NCBI RefSeq assembly: GCF_000495475.1
Contig: NZ_ASGZ01000005.1
Span: 1-64,000 of the forward strand
From: Candidatus Halobonum tyrrellensis G22
GTDB taxonomy: Archaea; Halobacteriota; Halobacteria; Halobacteriales; Haloferacaceae
DNA length: 64,000 nucleotides
Reading direction: 5' to 3'
Under the pieces are notes generated by a model. That model was not told where the DNA came from and searched no databases. It was given only the letters and a program-made list of their open reading frames with translations. Numbering within the stretch: the stretch's first letter is position 1; each line of letters starts with the position of its first letter. The position numbers were made by a program, and so were the translations under genes. Positions 34,658 through 50,089 of this stretch are shown in pieces.

Positions 34658-34825
34658 AGCGCCTCGGTTGGTGGCAGAGATGCTAACGGAGAAGCCGAGC
34701 CCACGCACCAATTCAAGCGGTCTCGGCCTCAATACCCGACGAAGATGCCGCGAACCATAGTGAAGGAAATCCCAGCTGCTCCGTCGTTTAAGTAGTTCTG
34801 GTCACAAGGGATAGCTACGAAGGGC

Positions 34826-34847
34826 ATTCGACGCAGTTGCGTCGAAT
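34826..34847. repeat. 22-bp near-perfect palindrome
   Basis: ATTCGACGCA and TGCGTCGAAT are exact inverted 10-mers separated by only two bases, followed by TTTT. The spacing is too small for a stable hairpin loop without unpairing, so a dimer-binding operator or recombination site is as likely as a terminator. It lies in a 320-base gene-free gap (34625-34946). Confidence 0.5.
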
Positions 34848-34946
34848 TTTCTGCGTCTCACCGTTCCGCCGAGGCTTGACTCTCGACGGTCTGTATTCGG
34901 GTGCTAGCTACTCGGTTGGCAAGACGAGAGTGACAGTGGAGTTTAA

Positions 34947-35349
34947 TTATCCACCTGTAGTAATCTGATTCGCAGTCCATGTCAGAGGCACGGTGTCGTA
35001 CTGGCACCTATCACACCGTCGTAGCACGTAGTCGTTGTCCACCTCTGCAGTCGTGAGCGTCTCGACGACCGTCGCGTGAGTGAGCGCCGAGCAGTTGCGA
35101 CTCCGGGTGGAACACGGCGAGTTGCGTGATCGAGTCGAAGGCCTCGCTACTCGGATTGTGGACCAACACCCGTCGTTCCGCAACCGGCGTCACCACGCCG
35201 TCGTCGACGAAATCGTTAACCAACCGCTGCGCCGTCCCGTCGGTGAGGTCCGCTGTCGCCCGAGTGGCGTCTCGATCCTGCGCGAGTTGTTCGGTCTCGA
35301 ATCGCTCGTAGTCGGTACTTGTGTCGTCGAACGCAGTCGGACCAGCCAT
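34947..35349 (-). pseudogene. Frameshifted hypothetical protein with a C-terminal Cys pair
   Basis: The first frame from ATG 35349 gives about 80 acidic residues (TSTDYERFETEQLAQDRD, GTAQRLVNDFVDDGVVTP) with winged-helix character. The second frame gives ALTHATVVETLTTAEVDNDY, VLRRCDRCQYDTVPL to a stop at 34947. They join with a one-base change near 35100. The CxxC near the end suggests a zinc site. It is divergent from the HTH-VapBC operon. No family recognised. Confidence 0.5.
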
Positions 35350-35497
35350 GTGGAGTCACGAGACGCATCGTGAGCGCCTCGGGCCCTCCGGCGCCGATAA
35401 ACCGTTCCCGTCGGCATCAGAGTCCCAGCCGAACCGGTCAGGGCCATCAGCCACGGGAGCAGATGGACTTATCAGACGCGACGCCATAGCGAAAGGC

Positions 35498-35737
35498 ATG
35501 CCAACCTCCGAGCGAGATGAGGGCGGTCGATACAAGCCCGAACATTCGGATGCGGAGGTACTCGACGCAGTCCGGACGCACAACCCAGCCGCGACGAGTG
35601 AGGTTGCTGACGAACTCGGAATCGCACGCCAGAGTGCGGACTACCGGCTTCGAAAGCTCGCCGACGCCAACCACGTCAATCACAAGAAGATCGGTGCCGC
35701 AGCCGTCTGGTCGCTCCCAGCGGAGGCTGAGCGATGA
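35498..35737 (+). CDS. Small winged-helix protein heading the VapBC-like operon
   Basis: A 79-residue HTH protein (HSDAEVLDAVRTHNPAATSE, VADELGIARQSADYRLRKLA) of MarR/ArsR type, ending VWSLPAEAER. Its stop overlaps the ATG of the next gene by four bases. A dedicated DNA-binding protein in front of an antitoxin-toxin pair suggests a three-component regulation. Start chosen at MPTSERDEGGRY; the upstream codons lack bias. Confidence 0.75.
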   Translation: MPTSERDEGGRYKPEHSDAEVLDAVRTHNPAATSEVADELGIARQSADYRLRKLADANHVNHKKIGAAAVWSLPAEAER

Positions 35738-36039
35738 GTAGCGAGCACCGGCGGATCACGCTTACCGAGGCCACGGATGGCCGCTGGACAGCGCACGACG
35801 AACGCGCGAACGTGACTGTCCACGGCGACACCCGTTCTGGAGCGCTTGACGCGCTCGATGAGGCGATCGAAGCCGCTGAGACGGACGACAACGACCCGCC
35901 CGCTGCGCCACTCTACGAGCTGGTCGGCCTCGTCGACGACGAGGAAGCCGACCGTGTTCGAGAACGATCCGAGCAGTTCCGTGCGGAGTTCGACGAGCGG
36001 GTTGACCAGACGCGCCGAGAGCTATCGGATCAGAACTGA
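35734..36039 (+). CDS. Antitoxin-like protein paired with VapC
   Basis: A 101-residue acidic protein. The first half is a small beta-sheet domain of HicB-like appearance (RRITLTEATDGRWTAHDERA, VTVHGDTRSGALDALDEAIE). The second half is a long charged helix (EADRVRERSEQFRAEFDERV) suited to wrapping a toxin. It ends one base before the PIN gene start. Antitoxin role is inferred from this position, which is standard for VapBC operons. Confidence 0.75.
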   Translation: MSSEHRRITLTEATDGRWTAHDERANVTVHGDTRSGALDALDEAIEAAETDDNDPPAAPLYELVGLVDDEEADRVRERSEQFRAEFDERVDQTRRELSDQN

Positions 36040-36420
36040 ATGCTGCTCGACTCGACGTTTCTGATCGATTTGTTGAATTGCGATACGGACGCAATCGATC
36101 GACTTGACGACCTCGCCGACGCAGCGACCCCGGTTTCGTTTTCGGTCCTGACCGCGTTCGAGGTCGGAGTCGGACTCAGTGGTGCGACCCAACGAGAGCG
36201 ATACGACCGAGTGACGGACGCGATGACGGTGATGCCGCTGACACACGCCGATGCGCAGCGGGCGACCGTGATTCAGCGAACACTCCAGTCACAGGGAGCA
36301 GCGATTGGCTCGATCGACGCGCTCATCGCCGGCACTGCACTCGAGCGTGATGAGGCGGTACTCACGCGGAACGTCGACGAATTCGAACGGGTTGCCGATC
36401 TCGTGGTCGAGTCATATTGA
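36040..36420 (+). CDS. vapC: VapC-family PIN-domain toxin (intact)
   Basis: A 126-residue PIN RNase. The conserved acidic residues are visible: MLLDSTFLIDLL (first Asp), FEVGVG (Glu), GSIDALIAGTAL (second Asp) and LTRNVDEFERV (third Asp). VapC toxins cut tRNA or rRNA when freed from their antitoxin. It starts directly after the antitoxin stop. Of the three PIN genes in this window it is the only one without a frameshift. Confidence 0.9.
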   Translation: MLLDSTFLIDLLNCDTDAIDRLDDLADAATPVSFSVLTAFEVGVGLSGATQRERYDRVTDAMTVMPLTHADAQRATVIQRTLQSQGAAIGSIDALIAGTALERDEAVLTRNVDEFERVADLVVESY

Positions 36421-36481
36421 CTGTGACCGAGTGAATACTCGACCCCAATAGCCTACTGTGAGGGGCGTATAGTAGCTGTCA

Positions 36482-36715
36482 ATGTCGAACTCTCGGACAC
36501 CCTTGAGTCCGGGACAGCGCGCTGTCCTCGAACACCTCGAAGCGCACGTCGGGAGTTACGGCGAGGGCTTTTCGTGGAAGGCCACAGTCAGGATCCTTGC
36601 TGAACACGATATCGAAGAGGCGGCCGCCCGTGATCAGATCGAGGCGCTTCTGCTCAAAGGGTATCTCTACGAGGTAGAGGAAAGTCTCCGAATCCCGCCT
36701 CGCCCTTACGAGTGA
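36482..36715 (+). CDS. Small winged-helix protein
   Basis: A 77-residue acidic protein with a helix-rich wHTH-like core (LSPGQRAVLEHLEAHVGSYG, ATVRILAEHDIEEAAARDQI, EALLLKGYLYEVE). It starts 61 bases after vapC and could belong to the same transcript. It resembles short haloarchaeal HTH proteins, but DNA binding is not proven. Convergent with the lipoprotein gene that follows. Confidence 0.65.
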   Translation: MSNSRTPLSPGQRAVLEHLEAHVGSYGEGFSWKATVRILAEHDIEEAAARDQIEALLLKGYLYEVEESLRIPPRPYE

Positions 36716-36722
36716 CCCACCA

Positions 36723-37604
36723 TCAACAGCTGATGATGCTATCGCCATCGACTCGTTGAATACTCTCGGCCGTGACGAGATACGTCGCTCTTGAGGCACC
36801 GTCGGCCTCTGTGGTTGCCGTCGAATACCAGTACGGGTGCGTCACACTCACTCGAACACCGTCAGCCGTTCGCTCCGAGACGGTCGCCTCGGTTTCGACA
36901 CCAGTGTACGATTCGAGCCCCCACGACTCGGTACAGGATGCTTCCTTCAGCTGAGTTCTGATGTAGACCTCTTCGGCGGCGAGAGCACGTTCAGTTGCTT
37001 CGTCATCCGAGACACTGGATGCGTCAGTCGATGAGGATGACTCACTGGTCTGATTGTCACCACTCCGAATCGGGTCGGGAAGCGACCGCAGTTCGGGCAT
37101 CGTCCCCGACCGCTCGAGTGATTGGATACGGGTGCCGTCGACGGTCACGACGAGCGTTTCCCAGTCACTCGGGACGTTCGCGCCGCCAGTGAGGTGGGTC
37201 CCAGACTGGCAAGTCGCGTCTGCACTGGACGACGTCGGCGACGTAGTAGTGGTAGACGCGCTGGTTGTAGCGAAGTCGAGAACGTATTCAGTCGAGTGGG
37301 AGTTCGAAAGTGACGGTGTGACTCCTCCGAGAGAGTCACAGAGGCGCGCGTCGAACGTCAGATCAGCTGACTCCCCGTCGCTTACGATGTGAACCCAGCC
37401 CGTTTCGGATTCCGACTCGTCGGTAAACGAGCCACTGCTTTTCGAGTAGGCGAGCCCGAGTTCATGATCGGGGTTGTCGGATGGGACACCTGTTCCAGAT
37501 GCGCCCCAGTCGGAGTGAACAGAACTGAGACACCCGGAAAGAGAACTCACGCCAGCGGTGGCACCCACCGTGAGCAGCCGACGGCGAGAGAGTGGAGGGC
37601 TCAT
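36723..37604 (-). CDS. Tat-exported lipoprotein
   Basis: A 293-residue surface lipoprotein. The N-terminus (MSPPLSRRRLLTVGATAGVS) is a twin-arginine signal ending in the lipobox LSGC. A beta-rich domain with two or three further Cys follows, then a Ser/Thr/Asp-rich linker (about residues 180-215) and a C-terminal helix-strand domain (EEVYIRTQLKEASCTESWGL). Anchored outside the membrane. No known binding family recognised. Start MSPP at 37604 rather than 37610. Confidence 0.78.
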   Translation of the reverse strand: MSPPLSRRRLLTVGATAGVSSLSGCLSSVHSDWGASGTGVPSDNPDHELGLAYSKSSGSFTDESESETGWVHIVSDGESADLTFDARLCDSLGGVTPSLSNSHSTEYVLDFATTSASTTTTSPTSSSADATCQSGTHLTGGANVPSDWETLVVTVDGTRIQSLERSGTMPELRSLPDPIRSGDNQTSESSSSTDASSVSDDEATERALAAEEVYIRTQLKEASCTESWGLESYTGVETEATVSERTADGVRVSVTHPYWYSTATTEADGASRATYLVTAESIQRVDGDSIISC

Positions 37605-37759
37605 ACGCACGGTGAAGCAATGACTCGGTAAGTACTTTCGGTGGAGCGCGCTCTGCCGATGGCAAGTCCTGTTCTCAATGACCTGTATTCACCTCCTACA
37701 AAATGATCGATAGACTAGGTCTGTGTTTGCTTCCGCTAGTTTCCCACAAGCCTTTTGAC

Positions 37760-37914
37760 CCGACTCGGACGGCGGCCGAAGCGCCACAAGTTCGGCTTCA
37801 AGGGTCTCGACACGCTCCTGCAATTCGTCGATAGTCGCCTCTCGCTGTTCGAGTTTCGCCGAGAGGACCGAGTTTCGTTCCTTCAGGTAGGCACGCTCGC
37901 GTCCATCTGACGTC
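37760..37914 (-). pseudogene. Partial duplicate of the coiled-coil gene at 39209-39574
   Basis: About 155 bases, close to 90% identical by eye to 39317-39467, encode the same coiled-coil core in the minus direction (LKERNSVLSAKLEQREATID). No start or stop of the parent gene is retained. It lies in an otherwise empty gap of about 340 bases (37605-37943). Confidence 0.7.
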
Positions 37915-37943
37915 CCGTCGAGTGTCGGTATCGGACCGAGCAG

Positions 37944-38741
37944 CTATGCCCTCAAAGTTGTATTCGCCACCCAGTCCGGTTTCTGAACGGTAGTACTTCC
38001 TACGTCGGACAGGGTGTACGTCTCCGTCATCCTCCGAGTGTGATAGTCGGCCCAGATAAATTCGTACTCATAGTGGCGGATGACACCGTCCTCGTCGAGT
38101 AGGAGGGTCGCTGAGAATTCCTCGAAGTACGAACTCGGGTTCCCGCCCCCCGCCCAGTTGGGCAGCGCGTCAACGCCGGTGGCTTCATAGCGCATCACCG
38201 GAACGCCTTGATACGTCTCAACGCCTTCGCGCTGGTAGGTGGCGTCGATCGCAGCGACCGCGAGCACGCTCAGACTTCCGCTGTCGTTGTTGAACCATCC
38301 ACGCCAGAGATACTGGTCGCCCGATTCATTGAGCACCGACCCGGGGGCGAGTGTCCTTACTGACGTGCGATTATCCGGAAACAGAAAGTACTCCGTACTT
38401 CCGTTCGAGTAAATGGTACTGTTCCCTGCGTAGCCGCTAGTGTGGACAAGGTACTGTGAGTCACTGGGTTCGACGAGAAATCGAGCCGTCACGTTCTGGT
38501 ACGTGAAGTTGTCCTCTGAACGAATCGGATCGCGTTGCTTCTGTGTTCTCTCGGTTACGAGCGTGAAACTCGTATTCCCCAGTTCGGTCGTGTGCCGATC
38601 GAACACCGACTGATCGATGTCGGACGCATTCGGAAATTCATCGGGGGACGGCTGGTTACCATCTGTGCCCGGAAGTCCGATACACCCCGCGAGGACCAGC
38701 AGGGCGACGACAGTCATTACTGAGAGCCGAAATGTCCGCAT
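37944..38741 (-). CDS. Haloarchaeal lipoprotein (DUF7537-like)
   Basis: A 265-residue surface lipoprotein. The signal peptide (RTFRLSVMTVVALLVLAGC) ends in a lipobox Cys. The mature part is beta-rich with Asn-x-Ser/Thr sites that may be glycosylated, motifs such as NVTARFLVEPSDSQYLVHTS and YQGVPVMRYEATG, and a late DEDGVIRHYEYEF. It resembles a haloarchaeal lipoprotein family of unknown function. The ATG at 38741 follows a poorly coding upstream extension. Confidence 0.8.
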   Translation of the reverse strand: MRTFRLSVMTVVALLVLAGCIGLPGTDGNQPSPDEFPNASDIDQSVFDRHTTELGNTSFTLVTERTQKQRDPIRSEDNFTYQNVTARFLVEPSDSQYLVHTSGYAGNSTIYSNGSTEYFLFPDNRTSVRTLAPGSVLNESGDQYLWRGWFNNDSGSLSVLAVAAIDATYQREGVETYQGVPVMRYEATGVDALPNWAGGGNPSSYFEEFSATLLLDEDGVIRHYEYEFIWADYHTRRMTETYTLSDVGSTTVQKPDWVANTTLRA

Positions 38742-38866
38742 AGTATGCTGTTCAATCAAACTATGGTTAAATGTGAGGGGTACCGTCTAGATAAGGGACG
38801 AGCAGGTCGAAGGGTTAGTTTCCTCTGCTACTCTCAAACCTGCTCAAAGAGACGTTAGACACTGCT

Positions 38867-39090
38867 ATGCTTGAATGTTGGCAGCATGGAGAGGGGCGTC
38901 ACCGTCCGCCTCCACGCTGCCGGTCTCCCGCTCAGAAAAACAGAAGCGATTCTGCATTTGGGGTAGAGCGCTCGTTTCAGGCGATCTTCCAGTGGGTTCA
39001 TCGGCTGGCTGACAGCGTTTCGGACCCGCCTTCGGCGAAGCTGAAGCGGGTCGCGGTCGATGAGACCGCTGTCAAAATCAATGGCGCTCA
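38867..39090 (+). pseudogene. 5' fragment of an IS6-family transposase
   Basis: Across one frameshift it reads LRKTEAIL, then GVERSFQAIFQWVHRLADSV and RVAVDETAVKING, which is the N-terminal HTH and first DDE Asp region of haloarchaeal IS6-type enzymes. Sequence after KING is unrelated, so the element is cut off abruptly at about 39088. Confidence 0.75.
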
Positions 39091-39208
39091 ATGGTCGAAC
39101 GCCAATTCAGGGGGTTAACTAGACAGTACCCCTCTGCTTTACCCACTATATTCGAGAGGTCTTCCATCTCGCCAGCAGAAATCTGTGTGACCCAGACGAG
39201 GAGGAAGG

Positions 39209-39574
39209 CTACGTATTATTGCCCACGATGCCCTTCAGCCGACTCCACACCGACTCCTCCGATTCGGATTCGTCACTCCCTGCCTGTTGAGTCGACTGCT
39301 TGCCTCCCGCCTCATCCGACTCGGACGGCGACCGAAGCGCCGCGAGTTCTGACTCCAGTGTCTCGACACGCTCCTGCAACTCGTCGATGGTGGCCTCTCG
39401 CTGTTCAAGTTTCGCCGAGAGGACCGAGTTTCGTTCCTTCAGGTAGGCACGCTCGCGTCCATCTGACGAGTCACCTGCCCCCGTTGTCTCGACTGACTCA
39501 CCTGCTATCTGTATCGTCTCCGTTGACCCACCTGCGTCGGCCTGTGTCGCCTTCGTTGACTCATCTGTATCCAT
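39209..39574 (-). CDS. Coiled-coil protein
   Basis: A 121-residue acidic protein: a disordered Thr/Asp/Gly-rich N-terminus, a coiled coil of about 45 residues (LKERNSVLSAKLEQREATID, ELQERVETLESELAALR) and a C-terminal SVWSRLKGIVGNNT. The ATG lies inside the end of the upstream gene, so it is the last gene of a coupled minus-strand set with the HBD-domain and conjugation-type genes. A partial copy lies at 37760. Function unknown. Confidence 0.65.
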   Translation of the reverse strand: MDTDESTKATQADAGGSTETIQIAGESVETTGAGDSSDGRERAYLKERNSVLSAKLEQREATIDELQERVETLESELAALRSPSESDEAGGKQSTQQAGSDESESEESVWSRLKGIVGNNT

Positions 39575-39976
39575 CCCCTCTCGTCTCGGCCGATAGACCA
39601 CTCGAGGCTGCCGTGAACTCGTCGGCGAAGTCGGAGTCATCCTGCACCGCTGTCCCCTCCCGCGTGGAAGGCTCGTAGAACTCGCTCGTGTTGTCGATGG
39701 CACGCTTGACCGTCCGTTCACCGTAGGTATCGCCGTTCGAGTGATGGACGTCGTCCCACTTGTCCCGATAGAGCCGCGACCGGCGGAACAGTTTGTCGAC
39801 CCGCATTGCGTCTCCCCCCGTCCAGAACGCGAGCAGACAACACAGCGCCATGTCGGCTTCCGACTGACTCGGGTAGCCACTGGTTCCGCCTCTCCACAGT
39901 CGGTCGAACTTCTCGCCGTTCCCGGCGTCTCGTGCCTTCGCAGTAGTTCCTCGTCTGAGAGGCTCACCTCCGTCAC
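39561..39976 (-). pseudogene. HBD-domain (phage/plasmid primase-associated) protein, frameshifted
   Basis: From GTG 39976 it reads VTEVSLSDEELL; restoring one base near 39930 continues ARDAGNGEKFDRLWRGG, SEADMALCCLLAFWTGGDAM, FRRSRLYRDKWDDVHH and TYGERTVKRAIDNTSEF. This is the small C-terminal domain found in haloarchaeal phage/plasmid polymerase-primase proteins, here stand-alone. GTGA overlap with the upstream gene and ATG overlap with the downstream gene show a compact operon. Likely a decayed plasmid replication or transfer gene. Confidence 0.65.
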
Positions 39977-40997
39977 GGACTCCTCCGGCAGTCCAACTGC
40001 CTCCAGCGGTACTGCGTGCGGCGGCCTGTCCAGAACTCCTCGATCAGCGTGGCGAGCCGGTCAGCGGAGACGGGTTCACAGTCGCGCGAGTCGAGGCCCC
40101 GGATCGCAGCTTGCACGTCATCGAGGCGCTGTTCGAGCGTCTCGCGCTGTTGTTGTTCGATCTCGGCGCCGAGAGTAGCGGGCTCTCGGCGCCGATGAAC
40201 GCAAGCAGACTGCCGACATAGGGAAGCGACTGGAGGTGGGACGTGGCGCCTCGTTCGGCCAACTGGACGTCACGAATGCTGACCGGCACGAGGATGTGGT
40301 ACTCCCGAAGGCTGGTTCCCCGCGCTCGAAACTCCGCCGGCAGACGGGTTTCGTACGTCTCGACGATGTCCCGAAGCGCGTCGCTCGCCTGGACGTCGGG
40401 GTCGTCGCGACGATCCCGATAGCTCTCGGTGATCCGCTCGGGGTCGATCGAACGGGCGCTGGCGTGAATCTGGATCGGAAAACCGAGCGTGTTCAGTGCG
40501 TTCCCGAGGGCGTTGGCCGCGCCGTCCCACTCGTCGTGGGTCGCGAGCGCCATGTTCGCCGGGTCGACACGAACGGCCGCAACGAACTGGCCGTCCTGTC
40601 GCTCCACTGCGTCGGCTTCGGGGACGAACCGAGCGATCTGCGTCAACGAATCGGGACGCTCGTTGGGGGCTGTGTCCACGGCGGAGCGGGTGGTCTCGCA
40701 GGTGGCGAATCGCGCGATGCGAGTGAGCCACCGATGCGGCGTCATGTGGTTCGGCGCGATGTACACGACCGCGCCGGCCACGAGGAAGATCACGATCGCT
40801 CCTGCGAGGCCGATGGTCGTCCCCCAGCGCCCGCCGAAGCGGGAGCTGAGTAGGACGACCAGCAGAGCGCTGAACATCGCAGGGATGAACAGTTTGAGGT
40901 CGTCGATACTGTAGTCGATATCGACGCCGACGATTTCGTCGGCGGCGCCGAACTCATCGAGTACCCGTCGGTGGGGATCGCGGCTTCTGTTGCTCAT
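39973..40997 (-). pseudogene. PrgI/VirB-type conjugation membrane protein, frameshifted
   Basis: From ATG 40997: a short cytosolic start, two helices (DLKLFIPAMFSALLVVLLSS, LAGAIVIFLVAGAVVYIAP) as in PrgI-like type IV secretion proteins, then a soluble domain resembling the N-terminal part of VirB4-type proteins (GFPIQIHASARSID, REYHILVPVSIRDVQLAERG). At about 40176 the frame shifts; the correct frame continues EIEQQQRETLEQRLDDVQAA to a TGA at 39973. One indel separates it from a full gene. Part of a conjugation remnant. Confidence 0.65.
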
Positions 40998-41011
40998 TGG
41001 TTGAATCGAAG

Positions 41012-41257
41012 TTAGCCGTTGTGCGGCCCTGTGTCGTCAGTATTCGCGGTTTTCTGATTCTGTTCGATCGGCGGCCAGTCGTCGTCGAGCGACCACACGC
41101 GGTCGATGACCGAGCGAATACTGTACATCGTGCGAGCACCCCACACTGTCCGCTGTTCGGCCAGCCGGCGACCGACGTACAGCGCACCGACGGGTGGAGC
41201 GCCGATCAGCGCGGACTCGAAGATAATCGGCGAGAGGAGCGAGACTGTGGTGAACAA
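41012..41257 (-). CDS. Small membrane protein upstream of the conjugation gene
   Basis: About 81 codons ending 14 bases before the PrgI-like start. The content is one or two helices (SLLSPIIFESALIGAPPVGA), then a helix YVGRRLAEQRTVWGARTMYS and a polar tail. No ATG is available; a TTG at 41257 is the best start, and it overlaps the divergent RPA-like gene, so the N-terminus may be truncated. The companion position fits a VirB2/VirB3-like part of a transfer apparatus, which is inference. Confidence 0.45.
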   Translation of the reverse strand: MFTTVSLLSPIIFESALIGAPPVGALYVGRRLAEQRTVWGARTMYSIRSVIDRVWSLDDDWPPIEQNQKTANTDDTGPHNG

Positions 41258-42095
41258 CGAGGATGCGGCAATCGACGAGGACGGATTCAAGGTCGTCGAC
41301 GAGCGGGTAGAGTTCCGGCCGACGGTGGAGATGGAAGTGCGGGCGAAGGTGGACGCCAACCACCCGGACGCGCGGGTTGATGATGACCCAGATCACATGG
41401 TCGGTAAGACCCTCGCACAGGAAGAGCGCATCCAAGCGCGGAACGACGAGTTGGAGCACATCAGTACCCAAGCGGAGTTGACGACCCAAGACGGTCGGCC
41501 GGGGCGGACGCGAGACGTGGTGACCGAGCAGAGCAAGAAGCAACAAGAGGAGTTCCAGAAGCGGCGCGCGGCCGTGGATCACTGGGCCGACCCCGAGCGG
41601 GACGACCCCCGAGAGCTGCTATCGCAAGAGCAGTTGGGCGAGGTCAACAGCGAGGCGATGCGGATGGATGAGAAGATCGAACAGTGGTCGCGGGCGGCGA
41701 TCAGTCGGCGGTTGGCACGGGCGGTCGTGAATGGAACGAGCATGATGAGTGCGGTTCTGCGCGTGTTCGAGCAGTTGCAGACGGCGCCGGGACGGGTCGT
41801 GCCGATTGGGGAGTTGGAAGGGTTGAGTCGACAGACAGTAAGCATCGAAGGAACGGTAACTCAGCTCTGGGATGCTAACTCACCAGCCATTCAACAAGTC
41901 GGGCTCATTGAGGACGAAAGCGGGAAAACGAAATTCACGATCTGGACCAAATCCCGTCAGTCTCTGGTCGAAGAGGACGAGCGTGTGTGGATGCATGGAG
42001 TGAAGCGGAGCTGGTACGAAGGACGGGTCTCCATAGCTGTCACAGGCTGGTCGACCCTGCACTTCCCCGAGCGCGGGCGCTGGTGGAACGAATAG
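41247..42095 (+). CDS. RPA-like OB-fold single-stranded-DNA-binding protein
   Basis: A 282-residue acidic protein. A long helical first half (EMEVRAKVDANHPDARVDDD, EQSKKQQEEFQKRRAAVDHW) leads to an OB fold in the last 90 residues (QTVSIEGTVTQLWDANSPAI, IEDESGKTKFTIWTKSRQSL, RVSIAVTGWSTLHF). This resembles haloarchaeal plasmid-borne replication-factor-A-like proteins that bind ssDNA. GTG starts at 41247 and 41250 are equally possible. It is divergent from the conjugation remnants. Confidence 0.82.
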   Translation: MVNNEDAAIDEDGFKVVDERVEFRPTVEMEVRAKVDANHPDARVDDDPDHMVGKTLAQEERIQARNDELEHISTQAELTTQDGRPGRTRDVVTEQSKKQQEEFQKRRAAVDHWADPERDDPRELLSQEQLGEVNSEAMRMDEKIEQWSRAAISRRLARAVVNGTSMMSAVLRVFEQLQTAPGRVVPIGELEGLSRQTVSIEGTVTQLWDANSPAIQQVGLIEDESGKTKFTIWTKSRQSLVEEDERVWMHGVKRSWYEGRVSIAVTGWSTLHFPERGRWWNE

Positions 42096-42309
42096 CCGGA
42101 CAGTATGAGTTTTCTTTTTGCTAGACGTCGGACCGACCCTGACCCCACCCTCCGCTCCGTGCTCGCGTCGCTGCGCGCGCAGTCACGACCTCCGTAGCTG
42201 GTACTCGTTGCTCCCTACACTAGATCACCAAACAAAGCGTTAGAGAGGTCGTTTATCTGCGCCTCGATGGCTGAGGCGCTCGAATCAATACGGGCGTCTT
42301 CGAGCTACG

Positions 42310-42527
42310 ATGACAACGGACGATGACTCCTACGTATGTGACCTCTGTGGGAAACGTTCGAGCGACCAAGCAAGCTAGGCGGCCACAAGCGCGGTCACCA
42401 GCTCACGGTCGGGCGTGAGGAGTTCCAAGCCGAACTCAGACGCCTCGCTGATGAGTTCGAAACGCCGACAGTGTCGATGATGAACGAGCAATTCACGCAG
42501 GCGGCAGTCGCGGCGGCGGCGGTGTGA
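42310..42527 (+). pseudogene. Single C2H2 zinc-finger protein, frameshifted
   Basis: ATG 42310 gives TTDDDSYVCDLCGK; with one extra A in the AAA run at about 42350 the frame continues FERPSKLGGHKRGHQLTVGR, forming C-x2-C-x12-H-x3-H. A helix (REEFQAELRRLADEFETP) and an Ala/Val tail follow to a stop at 42525-42527. Without the repair it ends after 23 codons. A short GTG frame overlapping this stop (42523-42612) may be another small gene. Confidence 0.6.
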
Positions 42528-42778
42528 CGGCGAACACGATTCGGAAGCATAGCAAGACGCTAGGGGAGGTGCGGATTACCGCTGATGACGCGAATCGTAG
42601 TGGCGATAGATGACAGTACAGAGGGCCGTCGATGCCAAAGGGAGAACGAAGCCCGAGCTACTTCTAATACCGCCCAATAGCTAACGACTTACGGTAGAGC
42701 GTGTGTCTACTGACGCCTACGCCACGACGATATAACGAATGAGTAACTCAATGTGAACTGGTCCAGGGAGGTGTCTCA

Positions 42779-43594
42779 TTACCTAACTTCTGAATCGGTA
42801 TTCTCTGGTACGTGTTCGAGTACACGTCCCACAACGGTTGCCGTTCGCTGAACGAAGTGTAGATTACCGTCCCGTCGAAACGGACATGTTCCACTCAAGT
42901 CGCGTTCTTCGTCTTTCCGTATCATCTCTCGTACGTCCATGGCTCGTTGTTCCGGTGTCTCTGCGTCACTAAGCCATGCTTCCATCTCCGGCACGAGCGT
43001 TCCCATTCGCACGTTCTCTACTTCGACCCCTTGTTTAGCGATCGCTTGCAGTAGCTCGCTGAGGGGGAGTGCCCGCACGTGAGAGGAGTCCCTGAGGCGT
43101 TCGAACTCGTTCTGGTAGTTCCCACGCTCAGAGTGTTCACTGACCACAAGGTCCCCTACGGCTATGGTCCCACCCGGACGGCAAACTCGTACCATCTGTT
43201 CGAGGACCTGTGCGGGGTCTTTGACGTGGTGGAGAGCGAGCCGACAGACGACAGTATCGAAAGAGTCGTCGGAGAATGGAAGCGATTCCGCGTCACCCTG
43301 TAGGAACGCAATATTCTCTATCTCCCGGTCACGCTTTCGATTGGCGGCGATAGCGAGTGGTGCATCGGTGAGGTCGAGTCCGACGACGTCCTTACACACG
43401 TCCGCGAAGCCGAATGCAACGTGTCCCGGCCCAGTCGCGACTTCCAGAACACGTGCATTTGGATCCACACCGGACATCCGCACCAGTCGGTCGATACGCT
43501 CCGAGTCCGTTAGTGAGGCGTTCGAGGCGTACGCTTCGGCTTGTCTCGTGAACGCCTCCTGTACTGTCTGCTTGTGATCCTCTGTACTGGGCAT
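42779..43594 (-). CDS. Class I SAM-dependent methyltransferase (UbiE-like)
   Basis: A 271-residue cytosolic enzyme. Motif I VLEVATGPGHVAFGF, motif II VVGLDLTDAPLAIA, and post-motif FLQGDAESLPFSDDSFDTVV with the LALHHVKDP block are typical of type-11 methyltransferases acting on small molecules. The C-terminal 90 residues (LRDSSHVRALPLSELLQAIA) resemble the UbiE/MenG tail, but the substrate cannot be read from sequence. The ATG at 43594 (MPSTEDHK) is chosen. Isolated from its neighbours by more than 150 bases each side. Confidence 0.88.
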   Translation of the reverse strand: MPSTEDHKQTVQEAFTRQAEAYASNASLTDSERIDRLVRMSGVDPNARVLEVATGPGHVAFGFADVCKDVVGLDLTDAPLAIAANRKRDREIENIAFLQGDAESLPFSDDSFDTVVCRLALHHVKDPAQVLEQMVRVCRPGGTIAVGDLVVSEHSERGNYQNEFERLRDSSHVRALPLSELLQAIAKQGVEVENVRMGTLVPEMEAWLSDAETPEQRAMDVREMIRKDEERDLSGTCPFRRDGNLHFVQRTATVVGRVLEHVPENTDSEVR

Positions 43595-43809
43595 ATGAAC
43601 CAACAACTGAGAGAGGGTTTTAGTGTGTCCCCTTAGCCCCTTTCACACCTGGCACGCGTCCCTCAGGCGGCCGTTCGATAGATGCTCTACTACTCTACCG
43701 ACACCACGTAACACAGAAACGAGGTCATCAGGTCTCGCTGTTCTGTCTATCGATCCTGGAGGGATAGGGGCGTGAAAGAGCGTCTCCCTCGATTTCTGGG
43801 TGAGATCAA

Positions 43810-44043
43810 ATGCCGACGAGAGCCATCTACGAGACGACGGTCGACGAGGACGTATATCCCGACTCAAACGCCAACCCCTGTCCCGAGTGCGGCGACCGAG
43901 TAACGACCAACGCCGTCGGAACAGTCTGTGACGACTGCGGGCTCGTGATCGACTCGGCCCCCGAGTGGCAGAACCAGAGCGCGGCCGACCGCGAGCAGTA
44001 TGGCCCACCTGCGGTGCGGGGGACGGTGAGCGCCGATGAGTAG
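43810..44043 (+). CDS. TFB-like zinc-ribbon protein
   Basis: A 77-residue protein with one zinc ribbon, CPECGDRVTTNAVGTVCDDC, identical in spacing to the N-terminal ribbon of archaeal TFB, followed by GLVIDSAPEWQ. The cyclin-like core of TFB is missing. It may modulate basal transcription or simply be a small structural ribbon. Its stop overlaps the ATG of the methylase by 8 bases. Confidence 0.7.
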   Translation: MPTRAIYETTVDEDVYPDSNANPCPECGDRVTTNAVGTVCDDCGLVIDSAPEWQNQSAADREQYGPPAVRGTVSADE

Positions 44044-44664
44044 CACGACCGGCGTCAACGTTGAGCCGATCCTCGATCCAGTAGAGGAGATCGAACGTCG
44101 TGGGTTCAGTCGCTACGACGTCTTCCGCGACTGGGTCGACCTCATGCTCGCGGCGCTCCAGCGCGACGACGACACCTACCTCGAGACGCTCGGTCGGTAC
44201 GACCGCGACGGTACTCACGACCGTGAGCGCGGTGAGCGTGTTCCCGACCTGTTCGCGAGTGCCTTCTCGGAACTCATGGCCGCGAGGACGAGACGGGGCG
44301 AGATGACGATCGCGGACCCCGCGTGTGGGTCGGGCGACTGCTCGTTCTTGCCGCTCGCCATCAGGACGCGCCGACGGTCTGCTTCGGGCAGGACACAGAC
44401 CTCGTCTGTGCGCAGATGGCCGCGCTCAACCTCTGCTTCTTCAACATCGACGGGGCGGTGGTCTGGGGCGATTCGCTCGCCATGACGAAGCGACGCGCGT
44501 GGAAGACGCGCGGGACGATGCTCGGTGGCGAGATAGCCGAGGTTGAGCCCGACGACCTGCCGTGGCCCGAGGCTGCGTTCGACAAGCCAACGAACGATGC
44601 GGAGCCGACAACCGTAGAGCATGATGCGATTGAACAGTCAGAATTGGGAGCGTGGGAGCAGTGA
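44036..44664 (+). pseudogene. N6-adenine DNA methylase, short and frameshifted
   Basis: ATG 44036 encodes about 100 residues ending in the SAM motif IADPACGSG. Restoring one base at about 44335 gives GSGRLLVLAARHQDAPTVCF, then CAQMAALNLCFFNIDGAVVWGD, the HsdM-type layout. The catalytic NPPY/DPPY motif is not present, so even repaired (about 208 residues) it seems truncated or specialised. Coupled to the zinc-ribbon gene upstream and, by a GTGA overlap, to the next remnant. Confidence 0.65.
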
Positions 44665-44820
44665 GCGACGCCGAGCAGCCGCCCTTATGCGTCGGCGACT
44701 ACGTAATCAACCGTAAGGCGACGAAGACCCCAGATAAGGACACATCAGTCAGCTCGTGGTCAAACTGACGCTCAACCGGGTGGATGCTGTCTCCATCGAA
44801 GAGGGAGAGGCCGTTGCCAA
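44661..44820 (+). pseudogene. Truncated small plasmid-type hypothetical
   Basis: GTG 44661 starts VSDAEQPPLCVGDYVINRKA, breaks near 44755, and a shifted frame continues VVKLTLNRVDAVSIEEGEAV before losing coding character. It looks like the first 50 codons of a short conserved haloarchaeal plasmid gene, with a frameshift and a lost 3' end. Confidence 0.45.
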
Positions 44821-44904
44821 CACAGGTGACAGGCAATACACTACCACCCTATTCGTTTCGGTGCCTAGCCGGTACGATAGGCGGCGTACCAACTCTGTAC
44901 TGAC

Positions 44905-45201
44905 TTACTTTGTGATTGACTGCTCATTGAGCGGAGTCGGATCGACAAGAGTGGCCATTACCTTGTAGAATCCATATAAGCAGACGAGAGCCATAATCAG
45001 CGCGGCCACGAACACCGATAGACTAACGGGGACCGTAGTATATATTCCAGCGATCACAATAGCTACTGCGACAGCAAGGACACCAAGCAGGAGGAGGGCA
45101 ACCCCGACGTACCATGTCTCTCGTGTCGCCATCTGTGGCATCCTATTCTCTCCTGCATCTATTATATCTGTGGTAGACACTGACACTAGCTCATTAGCCA
45201 T
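44905..45201 (-). CDS. Small two-helix membrane protein
   Basis: A 98-residue protein with a polar N-terminus (MANELVSVSTTDIIDAGENR) and two hydrophobic helices (YVGVALLLLGVLAVAVAIVI, VSLSVFVAALIMALVCLYGF). Codon use is AT-richer than in core genes, consistent with an accessory origin. No family recognised. Confidence 0.6.
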   Translation of the reverse strand: MANELVSVSTTDIIDAGENRMPQMATRETWYVGVALLLLGVLAVAVAIVIAGIYTTVPVSLSVFVAALIMALVCLYGFYKVMATLVDPTPLNEQSITK

Positions 45202-45268
45202 ACACCATACAGGAGATCGGATAACGACGATTTACAAGCAATGACGCTCCAGAGCTGTGATCAGTCCC

Positions 45269-46139
45269 ATGCCCGGACGTGACTTCGACGACGACGCCGA
45301 ACTCCGCCCGCTCGGAGAGTCGACTCACGTCCCCGATCACGAACTCGACACCGACTGCACAGACCGGCGTCGTGACCCGCGACGCGCTCGCTCGTCTGCC
45401 GAGGCCGGGTCCCCGCTCAACTGCTGCGCCTGTGGTGCGTCGATCCCCGCCGGGCGCACGAAGTGTCGGTTTTGTCTAACGAATCACGTCGAACCGGTCG
45501 ATACCGACGATGACGCAGCCGACGAGACGGAGTTCCTCCACGTCGTCCACCTGATCGTCCCGGCGGCCTCCCGGTACGCCGCCATCGCGAAGGCCACCAC
45601 CGCCGCGTCGGTCGTCCCACGGAACGACGGGACGATCACCGGTTGTGATCCCGTCGCCGCTCTCGACGATGAGCCGACACAGCAATTGGTGAAACGGTGG
45701 GGTGCGCTTCCGGCGGCGGTACGGGTGGCCGCCGAGCGCGGGCAGCAACTCCTTGCGACCGGTCGGGAGCGAACGCTGAGATGGACGCCGGACAGGTACG
45801 CGGCGACTATGAGGGCCATACGACGTTCCTCTACGACGAGATGGGACAGGCGGTCGAGAACGACGAGCGGCTCACGGCGCTCCTTGAGGACGCCCGTGAC
45901 GACCTGTGGCTCGTGCCCGCGCTCGCGCTTCAGCGCGCTGAGAGTGGCGACGAGGGGAGTGAGAGTCAGCGTCATCACGGTCCGAAGCGAGCGAGTCTCA
46001 CCTGCCGCGAGTGTGACCGCGAGACGGCACACCAGTTCCAGTCGGTCGAGGAGACCCCCGACGAGACGTGGCCGGGCCAGCCTATCTGGAGTGTCGCGTG
46101 TGCGGTGCGAGTCGGTACGGCCCATCCAAAGACGAATGA
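45269..46139 (+). pseudogene. Double-zinc-ribbon protein, two frameshifts
   Basis: ATG 45269 begins PGRDFDDDAELRPLGESTHV and contains a first ribbon CCACGASIPAGRTKCRFC. Near 45785 the frame shifts to DAGQVRGDYEGHTTFLYDEM, EDARDDLWLVPALALQRAES and CRECDRETAHQF; near 46085 it shifts again to ECRVCGASRYGPSKDE. Repaired, it is about 290 residues with two Cys4 ribbons. A conserved haloarchaeal accessory family of unknown function, here broken. Confidence 0.6.
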
Positions 46140-46158
46140 ACCATATCGAGGGTACGCT

Positions 46159-47940
46159 CTACAGGCGGTCTAGATAGTCATCGAAGGTTGCGGCCGCTCG
46201 TTCGTATGACTCATCAGAGAGTACGTCCACGCCGAGTGTCTCGAACGATTCCACCGGTGGGTGACGGCCAATCGTTCGAAGGAACTCTCGGTACTCGATC
46301 GGTCGGAGACTCTCGTCGCGAAGCCGCTCACGGACACCAAGCGCGCCGGTTGCACCCAAGACGTATTGATAGCTGCTGTACGGAATTCGCTGTCCGTGCC
46401 CGAGCCACTCACGTCCACTATCGCCGGGGAAGTCGACTGTGGGATCGAACTCCGCAAGGAGGTTCGCATACGCTTCACGGGCCATACGGGGAGAGAGTTC
46501 GTCGCCGGCTTCGATCGTCGTCGCCAGTCTGTGATTGAACGCAGCGGTTCGGGCGTTCCGATAGAAGTTCCCACTCAAGCACTCGATGAGCCGGTCACGT
46601 GCGTGTGCTGCGAGCGCTCCACCCGCATCGAGGCAGTGTTCTGCGAGCAACACCTCGTGGAGAATCGACGGTACCTCACAGATCGCCGTGGGAGCCGTCG
46701 CGTACCGAGTCGGCTCCGGTTGATACAGCATCGCGGTGAGCGCGTGGCCGAGTTCGTGGGCGATGTAGAACATCGTCCGTACGTCACGGTGGAAGTTCGC
46801 GAGGACGAACGCCCCGTCCGTGGCCGAAGACGGACAGTATGCCGGAATATCCGTTCGCTTGTCTTCGGTCGGGAACACGTCGATCCGCCGCTCCGAGAGG
46901 AAGGTGCGAGCCAATTCGACGTACTGCTCTCCGAGCGGTTCGAGAGCGGCTAGAATCAGGCTGGTCGCGTCCTCGTACTCGAGCTCCGGTGGCGAGGTAT
47001 CAGCCGTCGGAACCCGTCGATCCCACGGACGGAGCGTGTCGACGCCCAACCGTTCGCGTCGCACGCGCTGTGACCGATGGTACGGTTCGAGGTTATCGCG
47101 CACGGCAGCAACCAGCGTCTCGTGGACCGACTCAGGGAGGGCCGGCTCTAACCCGGATTCGGGGTACGTTCCGCGGAGGTCGCGGTCACGGATCGAGTCA
47201 TAGTCGCGGATCTCGGCTTCCGTCGCCGCCGCTGAGAGTTTCTCCGCTATCGTTCGCGTCAGTGTGGCCTCGAACCGCTCCATCTCCTCGTAGTACGTCT
47301 TATAGACCGTCTGTCGATAGTCGCGGTCCGAGTGTGACAGCTCCGTTCGCTTGTTGCCGACGCTCAGATCGACCGGGTCGCCGTCGGGCCGTTCGATCGT
47401 CGGGGGATCGAAGTCCTCGGTTGTGGTCGCGCGGTGAATCCGAGTCGGGGCACTCCGCGCTTCGGCGTGGGTAGCGATCGCCTCCTCGACAGCCGGCTCA
47501 CGCATTCGAGACGCCTGTGTACGGAGGTTCTGTGCATAGTAGCTGTACTCGTCGAGGTCCGAGAGCATCTCCTCGAACTCGGCGTCGGTGAGTCCGCCGA
47601 GACAGCGCCGGACCGACGCGACGACCGGTTCGAAATCGGCTTCGAGTTCGCGAAACTGTCGTTGGCGAGTAGCTGCTTCGTCGGAGGATGTCTCGACGTT
47701 CGCTGAGAGAGTCGCGTAGAGATCGAGTTGCTGTTTGCGCCGATAGCACTCCTCTGTCAGGTCGAGTACTTCCAGGAGTTCGGTTGTGTCAGTCGGTGGG
47801 TCAGCGGCAACCGATTCGAGACGAGCAAGTCGTTTTTCGAGCGCCTTACGTGCATCCGCCCATTCGTCGGGTGTCTCGAAGATGTGGCTGAGGTCGAAGC
47901 GATACTGCGGATCGACGTCGTCGCGTGACGGAAGACTCAT
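46159..47940 (-). CDS. pepF: Oligoendopeptidase F (M3 family)
   Basis: A 593-residue cytosolic zinc metallopeptidase. The catalytic HELGH sits in FYIAHELGHALTAML, with the third ligand Glu downstream in ICEVPSILHEVLLAEH. The all-helical N-terminal half (FETPDEWADARKALEKRLAR, YATLSANVETSSDEAATRQR) is typical. It cleaves short peptides. Full length, no lesions. It converges on the zinc-ribbon pseudogene. Confidence 0.95.
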   Translation of the reverse strand: MSLPSRDDVDPQYRFDLSHIFETPDEWADARKALEKRLARLESVAADPPTDTTELLEVLDLTEECYRRKQQLDLYATLSANVETSSDEAATRQRQFRELEADFEPVVASVRRCLGGLTDAEFEEMLSDLDEYSYYAQNLRTQASRMREPAVEEAIATHAEARSAPTRIHRATTTEDFDPPTIERPDGDPVDLSVGNKRTELSHSDRDYRQTVYKTYYEEMERFEATLTRTIAEKLSAAATEAEIRDYDSIRDRDLRGTYPESGLEPALPESVHETLVAAVRDNLEPYHRSQRVRRERLGVDTLRPWDRRVPTADTSPPELEYEDATSLILAALEPLGEQYVELARTFLSERRIDVFPTEDKRTDIPAYCPSSATDGAFVLANFHRDVRTMFYIAHELGHALTAMLYQPEPTRYATAPTAICEVPSILHEVLLAEHCLDAGGALAAHARDRLIECLSGNFYRNARTAAFNHRLATTIEAGDELSPRMAREAYANLLAEFDPTVDFPGDSGREWLGHGQRIPYSSYQYVLGATGALGVRERLRDESLRPIEYREFLRTIGRHPPVESFETLGVDVLSDESYERAAATFDDYLDRL

Positions 47941-48173
47941 TTGTGGCTCGGGATCGATGGGCTATCTACGAGGCGAAACGGCTGGTGAGACGAGCAACTA
48001 GTGCGGGCGAACACCAGTCGGAGAAACGTTAGCAGGTCATCGATCGACCGTCGTTGAACGTCTATCTGAGAGGGACGTAGATAGGTGTACCGGAGGCACG
48101 TTAGACGATCCCACGCCCCGGTGGTGTTTATCCCCCTCAGGGGTGCGGGGGGACAACCCTCGCAAGAGTACCA

Positions 48174-48554
48174 ATGGCGACACTCCACGCAGCGACCGCT
48201 TCACGCGGCGCACACGTCACCGACGCACAGGCCGTTCGACACCTCTGCGACTCCCACTACTTCGGGATGCTCGAGTGAGAAGCCACCGAGACGAGCGAGT
48301 TCTCATTCTGGGGCTACGATGCCTTCGACGTCTACGAGGCTGACGACGAGGGCCTCCCTGACTACGAGGCAGGTATCGCGACGCGATCGTTCCTGCGTGA
48401 ACTTTCGGAGCACATCGCTCCGGACGCGGAACTCGACATCCAGACGGCCGGCTACACCAAGTGTCGGTTCCCGGTCCACGCCCAGCGGTACGTCGTTCGT
48501 GAAAACGAGGTCCTCCACGCCGACCTCGGGAGCCTCGAAACAATCGACGGGTAG
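48174..48554 (+). pseudogene. Hypothetical protein with an in-frame stop
   Basis: ATG 48174 to TAG 48552 is one frame of 127 codons interrupted by TGA at codon 35 (48276). The translation is HVTDAQAVRHLCDSHYFGML, stop, then FSFWGYDAFDVYEADDEGLP, FLRELSEHIAPDAELDIQTA and FPVHAQRYVVRENEVLHADL. Both sides have normal codon bias, so a recent nonsense mutation is likely. Conserved plasmid-type small protein, function unknown. Confidence 0.6.
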
Positions 48555-48702
48555 AACTCACGAGTCGCACAGCAGAGCGATTTATCGAGCGCCGGCAGTG
48601 GGTGCCGGTGCCGTGAATGGGGCGACGAAGCGTCCACTCACCTGCGTCGGCGGAGTGAAAACCCGTGCACATGATCATCTACGCGCTCGTCGACGTGCTC
48701 GG

Positions 48703-48954
48703 TTATTCGAGACCAATCTCAGAGATCCGATCATTCACACGACTCACGAGTTCGGATATGCGCTTTCGGTGGGCTTGCCGGTCACGTCGCCGCTTGTAGA
48801 TGTCTTCTGCTCGATGGGCTATGGGAACGCTTACAGCCGCGATGAGGGCAATCAAGGCTGTTGCTTCGAGCGGGAGAGTCAGTAACCTCGTGACGAATAC
48901 CAGGACCCCTATGAGGGCGTAGAGGCCAAATAAAGCGATATCCCACTTATTCAT
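48703..48954 (-). CDS. Small two-helix membrane protein with a basic tail
   Basis: An 83-residue protein: helix 1 (IALFGLYALIGVLVFVT), helix 2 (ATALIALIAAVSVPIA) and a highly charged tail (YKRRRDRQAHRKRISELVSR). Upstream on the minus strand lie AT-rich TATA-like stretches around 48970-48990. No family recognised; similar in type to the product of 44905-45201. Confidence 0.6.
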   Translation of the reverse strand: MNKWDIALFGLYALIGVLVFVTRLLTLPLEATALIALIAAVSVPIAHRAEDIYKRRRDRQAHRKRISELVSRVNDRISEIGLE

Positions 48955-49057
48955 ATCCTGTATGGATTCGATATATCCAGCATTATATTAGTTGACTCTA
49001 CATCGGTGGGGCTGGTTAAGCTCAGTCTCATCATCGCTTATTTATAAGGCTCATGTA

Positions 49058-49297
49058 GTGCGGGGCCTTGGCAGATACGACTACGTCGGCCGAGTGGACG
49101 CACCCGTTCCCGCGCAGACGACGGTGACGGCGACGTTCGTCGCCGACCGCTTTCCCGAGGCGACCGTCGAGTGTGGCTCCTGTGGTATGTTGTTCGAGAC
49201 GACGAACGAGCGTGCGGTCTACTACTGGGACGCCGACCCGTGGGTACGGAAACCGGCACAGGTCCGTCGCCGGAGCAAACACAGCAAAGAGTCTTAA
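49058..49297 (+). CDS. Small zinc-ribbon protein
   Basis: A 79-residue protein (RGLGRYDYVGRVDAPVPA, ADRFPEATVECGSCGMLFET, ERAVYYWDADPWVR). Only one CxxC is present, so zinc binding would need a dimer or other ligands. TTATTTATAA lies at 49038-49047; it is very close to the GTG at 49058, so the in-frame GTG at 49094 is an alternative start. Its stop codon is part of the inverted repeat 49294-49337. Confidence 0.6.
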   Translation: MRGLGRYDYVGRVDAPVPAQTTVTATFVADRFPEATVECGSCGMLFETTNERAVYYWDADPWVRKPAQVRRRSKHSKES

Positions 49298-49337
49298 CCA
49301 ACAATCGTCGGGGTATCCCTTCACCCGTATTGGTTAA
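49294..49337. repeat. TTAACCAA/TTGGTTAA inverted repeat over a stop codon
   Basis: TTAACCAA (49294-49301) and TTGGTTAA (49330-49337) flank 28 bases. The stop TAA of the 49058 gene is inside the left arm. A second copy of this arrangement is at 56655-56698. Terminator or site of a DNA-binding protein; undecided. Confidence 0.55.
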
Positions 49338-49515
49338 GGGAGCTGTCCATCGGCCGAGAAAACGGCGGACTCGTGAAATGTGGTGTGTCCAAGCACGGGC
49401 CTACCGACTCGACAATGTCAGGCACCGCCAGTGACCAGTTCTCGTGAAGAGTGTATATCAGTTCGTGACTCGCTCCAAGAGCTGTTTATCTGCCCTCTGA
49501 CGGGTACGAGGGCGA

Positions 49516-49608
49516 GTTTCAGACGTACCCTCGTGGGGTTGAAGCCCGACGCGGGCACGACCCCCTCCTCCGCCATGCGCTTCAGACGAACCCTTGTGGG
49601 GTTGAAGC
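49516..49608 (+). CRISPR. Two-repeat CRISPR relic
   Basis: Two 30-base repeats (49516-49545 and 49579-49608) flank a 33-base spacer. Both end with GTGGGGTTGAAGC and begin GTTTCAGACG or GCTTCAGACG, which is the common haloarchaeal type I-B repeat. The copies differ at three positions. No cas gene and no AT-rich leader are visible in the window, so it is probably a broken-off or solitary piece. The strand is given in the repeat orientation shown. Confidence 0.75.
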
Positions 49609-49651
49609 GACCGCTGCGAGGTGGTCCTCGAACGTCGCGCTCGCCGTCGTC

Positions 49652-50089
49652 ATGTCCGTCTTCGCGACCGAACCGGCGACCAACGAAGGCGCGCAAGCTG
49701 CCGCGGAGAGCGGTTTGCTCGTCTGGATAATTCCTCTATCCCTGCTGCTCATCGGCCCGGGTGAGGAACTATTGATCCGCGGTATCATCCAGGGGTCGCT
49801 GCGCCGGCGCTTCTCCGCAACCGGCGCGATCGTCCTCGCTACCGCAATGTTCGCGCCCGCGCACATCGTGTCGCTGTCCGGGAGCCTTCAGGCGGCCGCG
49901 CTCACTATCAGTATCCTCTCAGTATCGAGTCTCATGTTCGGGCTCGTCTACGAACGCACCCGGAACCTCAGCGTCCCCATGCTCTGCCACGGCTTGTATA
50001 ACGCGACGCTGTTCGGCATTCAGACGCTCGCCCCCACCAGCGGCAACGGCGCCAATAGCCTTCTCTCCGTCTTTGTCGCGTCCCTGTAA
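49652..50089 (+). CDS. Shortened CPBP-family intramembrane protease
   Basis: A 145-residue membrane protein keeping the CPBP core: GPGEELLIRGIIQG (EExxxR), APAHIVSLSG and MLCHGLYNATL. Usual members have 220-280 residues with two or three more N-terminal helices. In-frame codons extend upstream (SSNVALAVV) right to the second CRISPR repeat, so the 5' part was probably replaced when the repeat fragment came to lie here. Activity uncertain. Different from the full-length member at 8285-9010. Confidence 0.6.
   Translation: MSVFATEPATNEGAQAAAESGLLVWIIPLSLLLIGPGEELLIRGIIQGSLRRRFSATGAIVLATAMFAPAHIVSLSGSLQAAALTISILSVSSLMFGLVYERTRNLSVPMLCHGLYNATLFGIQTLAPTSGNGANSLLSVFVASL

Follow-up and report, generated by a model that had tools for sequence, protein, structure and literature searches.

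The leader next to the first repeat is needed for a CRISPR array to grow, and most CRISPR spacers match no known mobile element. Type I-B CRISPR-Cas systems are carried by plasmids of several haloarchaea, namely pSTJ001 of Halobacterium hubeiense, pJOR178 of Salarchaeum and a plasmid of Halobacterium sp. DL1. Orphan or mini-CRISPR arrays, in which one spacer stands between two complete repeats matching the complete system of the host, have been reviewed (PMC8616872). A further kind of solitary pair is the CreA guide of CreTA modules (PMC8501985, PMC9458426). CreA guides have degenerate repeats, and bases 1–5 and 7–11 of the spacer pair with a promoter beside the PAM TTC (PMC8501985). The 5' handle of the crRNA has also been described (PMC9458426).

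The pair described here lies in the genome of Candidatus Halobonum tyrrellensis G22, in a window of 64,000 nt (the whole stretch of DNA analysed) that begins the 211-kb contig C5. It consists of two repeats with one spacer and stands between decayed plasmid DNA and a broken protease gene. The features are as follows.

34777–49515, no strand assigned: plasmid-derived block with 68–93 % matches to contig C70, with insertions and with its left part inverted; the pair is at its right edge
49076–49400, + strand: 5'-truncated remnant of a plasmid gene for a hypothetical protein, 78–81 % identical to C70 at the same two places as the promoter block
49469–49515, + strand: promoter block of a plasmid cassette, 47 bp, 96 % identical to two copies on C70, where it precedes a DUF7389 gene
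49516–49545, + strand: CRISPR repeat 1, 30/30 identical to the array B repeats of contigs C72 and C70
49546–49578, + strand: spacer of 33 nt, with no match in any collection searched
49579–49608, + strand: CRISPR repeat 2, taken as a terminal (trailer-end) repeat
49609–49645, + strand: ambiguous junction stretch with weak CPBP alignment, part of which resembles a spacer of array A
49652–50089, + strand: N-terminally truncated CPBP/Rce1-like protease gene, 145 aa from the first ATG at 49652 (Pfam PF02517, E 8e-19)

Repeat pair and spacer

The two 30-bp repeats, GTTTCAGACGTACCCTCGTGGGGTTGAAGC (repeat 1) and GCTTCAGACGAACCCTTGTGGGGTTGAAGC (repeat 2), are identical to each other at 27 of 30 positions. 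Both score above the gathering score of 35, the curated Rfam cut-off, for CRISPR-DR24 (43.0 bits, E 7.5e-6 for repeat 1 and 46.0 bits, E 1.5e-6 for repeat 2), and a chance origin was therefore dismissed. This bears out the preliminary description, made from the sequence alone, of two haloarchaeal-type repeats around one 33-base spacer. The last 8 bases, GTTGAAGC, from which the 5' handle of a crRNA is formed, are retained in both repeats. The spacer length is within the 32–40 nt range of the related plasmid arrays, in which 11 of 269 spacers have 33 nt. The predicted fold of a transcript of the pair was no better than that of shuffled sequences (z −0.87).

No further repeat with up to nine mismatches to the haloarchaeal consensus was found in the whole window, and no cas gene was found among the window ORFs read or scanned. 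The sequence standing directly before both plasmid arrays is missing at repeat 1, and the plasmid promoter block occupies the place of the leader. The pair was thus correctly described as having neither a leader nor linked cas genes.

Type I-B system elsewhere in the genome

A complete type I-B set (cas6-8b-7-5-3-4-1-2) was found on the 10.5-kb contig C72, with array A (repeat GTTACAGACGAACCCTTGTGGGGTTGAAGC) before cas6 and array B (whose repeat is that of repeat 1) after cas2. The arrays run off C72 and resume on both ends of C70, from which we infer one circle of at least 143 kb; C70 and C72 are apparently one plasmid, and C70 has an Orc1/Cdc6-like frame. The cas block of C72 is 87–88 % identical to plasmids of H. 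hubeiense, Salarchaeum and Halobacterium sp. DL1. In pJOR178, the cas operon of which is 88 % identical to that of the present genome, the array repeats equal repeat 1 at every base. It had been proposed that an array or cas operon directly linked to the pair would overturn its solitary status; the cas operon is on a different contig from the pair.

The search for a main array that had been recommended led to arrays A and B, whose repeats are identical to those of the pair at 27–30 of 30 positions. Repeat 1 is the array B repeat, whereas repeat 2 differs from the array B repeat by three bases and from the last repeat of array A by one (T2C), and is a variant unique in the assembly. The truncated last repeat of array B (C70, about 369–383) carries AACCC, like repeat 2, in place of the TACCC of the body repeats. 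A B-type body repeat followed by a last repeat of the AACCC type agrees with the structure expected of a B-type array at its trailer end. The spacer of the pair is in neither array as assembled, both being incomplete. Recombination between arrays A and B was considered as a source of the mixed repeats and was rejected, as it predicts an A-type followed by a B-type repeat and the reverse order was observed.

Plasmid-derived sequence to the left of the pair

The pieces matching C70 indicate that roughly 34.8–49.5 kb, about 15 kb, is a shrunken and rearranged plasmid segment with the CRISPR pair as its right edge. Three stretches, 41252–42100 (86 %), 45266–46128 (88 %) and 48125–48695 (88 %), match C70 at 88.7, 91.1 and 92.7 kb, collinear and on the same strand, and 49076–49515 matches at 102.5 (or 125.7) kb with order and strand kept. 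Most of 34777–41253 matches pieces of C70 between 63.4 and 47.9 kb in inverted order, and there are sharp switches between distant C70 segments at 40004/40005 and 41252. An M3 peptidase gene (46159–47940) is inserted in the block. Across the 211-kb contig, C70 matches of >80 % and >500 bases form a cluster at 39.3–48.7 kb, with one more at 120 kb; the remainder of the contig (64–211 kb) has scattered matches only. The GC content rises just right of the pair, from 0.565 at 48.5–49.5 kb to 0.70 at 50–51 kb.

At its right end the plasmid cassette meets the pair in an exact junction, which the preliminary description had not noticed: the last base of the promoter block is 49515, and repeat 1 begins at the next. 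A TATA-like TTTATC at 49485–49490, about 25 nt before repeat 1, would by its position put a transcription start near repeat 1. Genes related to the truncated remnant upstream of the block occur on many haloarchaeal plasmids. The junction of promoter block and repeat was found in no other of 170 genomes of the family, as would be expected of a local accident.

No tRNA gene was found as an integration site in the window or in the rest of the contig. With no tRNA gene found in its 211 kb, C5 could be another large plasmid (a megaplasmid) rather than chromosome.

Truncated CPBP gene to the right of the pair

The CPBP gene to the right retains the conserved C-terminal motif residues. In comparison with its 29 closest relatives (250–325 aa, from other genomes of the family) it is without the first 110–120 residues or so, in agreement with the earlier remark that the usual N-terminal part is lacking, and the 145-aa product is not a complete, full-length Rce1-like membrane protein. 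The missing half was not found elsewhere in the window; a second CPBP gene at 8.3–9.1 kb was rejected as its source, being a distant paralogue. Nothing on C70 corresponds to the CPBP sequence on the right, so that a plasmid origin is shown for the left side of the pair but not for the trailer side.

Repeat 2 had been described as lying directly against CPBP sequence. This holds to within about 30 nt: the first 28–37 nt after repeat 2 align poorly, and the alignment to a profile built from the relatives becomes firm at about 49637–49646. The 36 nt after repeat 2 (49609–49644) also show 24/36 identity, in register, to a spacer of array A at C72:81–116. By resampling, about one random place in 10,000 shows such a likeness. 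The match was noticed post hoc, however, and it was given no weight because 67 % falls below the usual 80–91 % identity of the plasmid block.

Spacer targets and regulatory potential

The search for the spacer in haloarchaeal viruses, plasmids and the host genome, which had been advised, gave no match in the collections used, which were searched with differing strictness. No match within three mismatches was present in the genome itself or in 392 Halobacteriales genomes, and blastn against phage and plasmid records returned only weak, chance-like matches. IMG/VR gave nothing with exact and degenerate patterns, including the back-translated frame, and neither did the genome contigs collection with the exact 24-base spacer core. 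A blastn candidate for a homologous solitary pair, on p117 of Halorubrum BOL3-1, proved to be a normal short array that has a leader of its own.

A regulatory crRNA source had also been suggested for the pair. A CreA-like guide, with the ectopic repeats directing Cascade to a host promoter, would share with two-repeat creA genes the two repeats around one spacer, the lack of a leader and the location outside the arrays (PMC8501985). However, the repeats are not degenerate, and the only site in the genome with TTC and the full seed (bases 1–5 and 7–11) is C44:42814, which is at chance level (an estimated 0.5 such sites in the whole genome) and pairs poorly beyond the seed; contigs C5, C70 and C72 have no 10/10 seed match with a known PAM. 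As a positive control, the same scan recovered the target of a creA-like gene on C72, with PAM TTC, at the promoter of a candidate creT. As this test recovers the creA-like gene but is negative for the pair, a regulatory role is not supported, and we regard a CreA-like guide as highly improbable. This simple control, which the creA-like gene passes and the pair fails, cautions against reading such repeat pairs as regulators.

The creA-like gene is part of a CreTA-like module at 330–630 on C72, between array A and cas6. It has degenerate repeats at 539–568 and 597–626 around a 28-nt guide, the first 11 bases of which match the candidate creT promoter next to TTC. The candidate creT is a mini-ORF, ATG-AAG-CCT-AGA-AGA-TGA, with rare arginine codons; the similar module of H. 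hubeiense uses ATA codons instead.

Origin of the repeat pair

We conclude, with a probability of about 0.8, that the pair is what remains of the trailer end of a B-type array, carried by a plasmid related to the CRISPR plasmid of this genome (C70 and C72), and that it marks the border of decayed plasmid DNA. The preliminary description had offered either a cut-off array end or repeat-mediated recombination into a gene. The former is favoured by the array B sequence of repeat 1, the last-repeat type of repeat 2 and the shrunken copy of the plasmid family in the left-hand DNA. The latter may apply on the CPBP side, although a single genome does not reveal the mechanism and the N-terminal half was not found in the window. 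In the proposed course of events, a segment of a plasmid related to C70 and C72 would have lodged in the replicon represented by C5 and then shrunk by deletions. One deletion would have fused the promoter block of the DUF7389 cassette to the first base of the repeat, with loss of the leader, the cas genes and the remaining array. At the other edge stands a CPBP gene whose N-terminal half has been lost. The spacer and both repeats are intact, and were the pair transcribed, possibly by way of the captured promoter, the Cas6 of C72 could cut both repeats and one crRNA could enter the plasmid's Cascade in trans. Without a leader the array could not grow, and most likely the pair is a relic that does little. 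Several points weigh against this origin. Both edges are near repeat boundaries, which is rare for random deletion (about 1 in 60 for the left edge), the spacer is in neither of the incompletely assembled arrays A and B, the CPBP side has no match on C70, and the likeness to an array A spacer, if real, would mean that the array continued past repeat 2. The fragmented assembly also leaves room for a misjoin at a repeat.

The captured promoter could also drive a functional stand-alone mini-CRISPR, supplying one crRNA to the plasmid's Cascade against some mobile element. The intact repeats with their handle, the conserved promoter block with its suitably spaced TTTATC and the complete I-B set of this genome are consistent with this, but no protospacer was found in the collections searched and the arrangement is not conserved among the 170 family genomes; we consider such a function possible though doubtful, and it can coexist with an origin as a relic. 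A narrower version, in which the joining of a plasmid promoter to repeat–spacer–repeat has freshly formed a single-guide gene transcribed from the repeat and acting in trans with that Cascade, appears distinctly unlikely. If true, it would represent an intermediate of the type proposed to give rise to ‘minimal CRISPR’ regulators such as creA.

The pair might instead mark a site of recombination or integration, with CRISPR repeats mediating the fusion of plasmid and replicon or with Cas1-Cas2 acting at repeat ends. The plasmid-derived block does end at the repeats, both of which are complete, and the right side switches to high-GC DNA with a broken gene. However, no second CRISPR copy or CPBP N-terminus is present at the other edge of the block, the right edge is resolved only to about 30 nt, and repeat-exact boundaries are inherent in array ends and leader junctions; this origin seems unlikely. 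A misjoin at the 30-base repeat shared with array B must be weighed for a fragmented assembly of 72 contigs in which C70 and C72 end inside arrays. It is very unlikely, as individual contigs read through several array repeats, the repeat 2 variant is unique in the assembly, and the plasmid-derived block and the truncated CPBP gene are independent of the repeat.

Comparison with known systems

A solitary repeat is also present on a putative haloarchaeal virus contig (IMG/VR UViG_3300025333_000002), where positions 2727–2756 match the array B repeat at 30/30. Five scattered copies of about the 3' half of the repeat lie at 1745, 2042, 5000, 5406 and 7380, most of them including the crRNA handle, and two copies share the sequence that follows. 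Six repeat matches in 7.7 kb, against 0.02 expected, are suggestive of solitary repeat units or of RNA anti-CRISPR decoys.

An orphan CRISPR remnant is a kind of relic already known. The present pair would illustrate one way in which orphan pairs originate, with a segment of a CRISPR plasmid entering another replicon and decaying to the tail of an array, while a relative with the full system persists in the cell. In comparison with the plasmid-borne type I-B systems, repeat 1 is their array repeat (30/30 in pJOR178, one change in pSTJ001 and the DL1 plasmid), but the pair comprises just two repeats, lacks a leader and linked cas genes, and is on a different contig from the genome's own system. 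It agrees with CreA in general layout but differs in its non-degenerate repeats, in the lack of a promoter target found for it and in its position, which is not beside the cas operon; the only candidate creT toxin recognised is, like that operon, on C72. It resembles the orphan and mini-CRISPR arrays (PMC8616872) in form, with one spacer between two complete repeats that match the host's complete system, and differs from them in its setting of decayed plasmid DNA beside a broken gene and in that no target of its spacer was found. Virus-borne mini-arrays are located in a virus or provirus, whereas the flank of the pair is plasmid DNA that gave no phage match.
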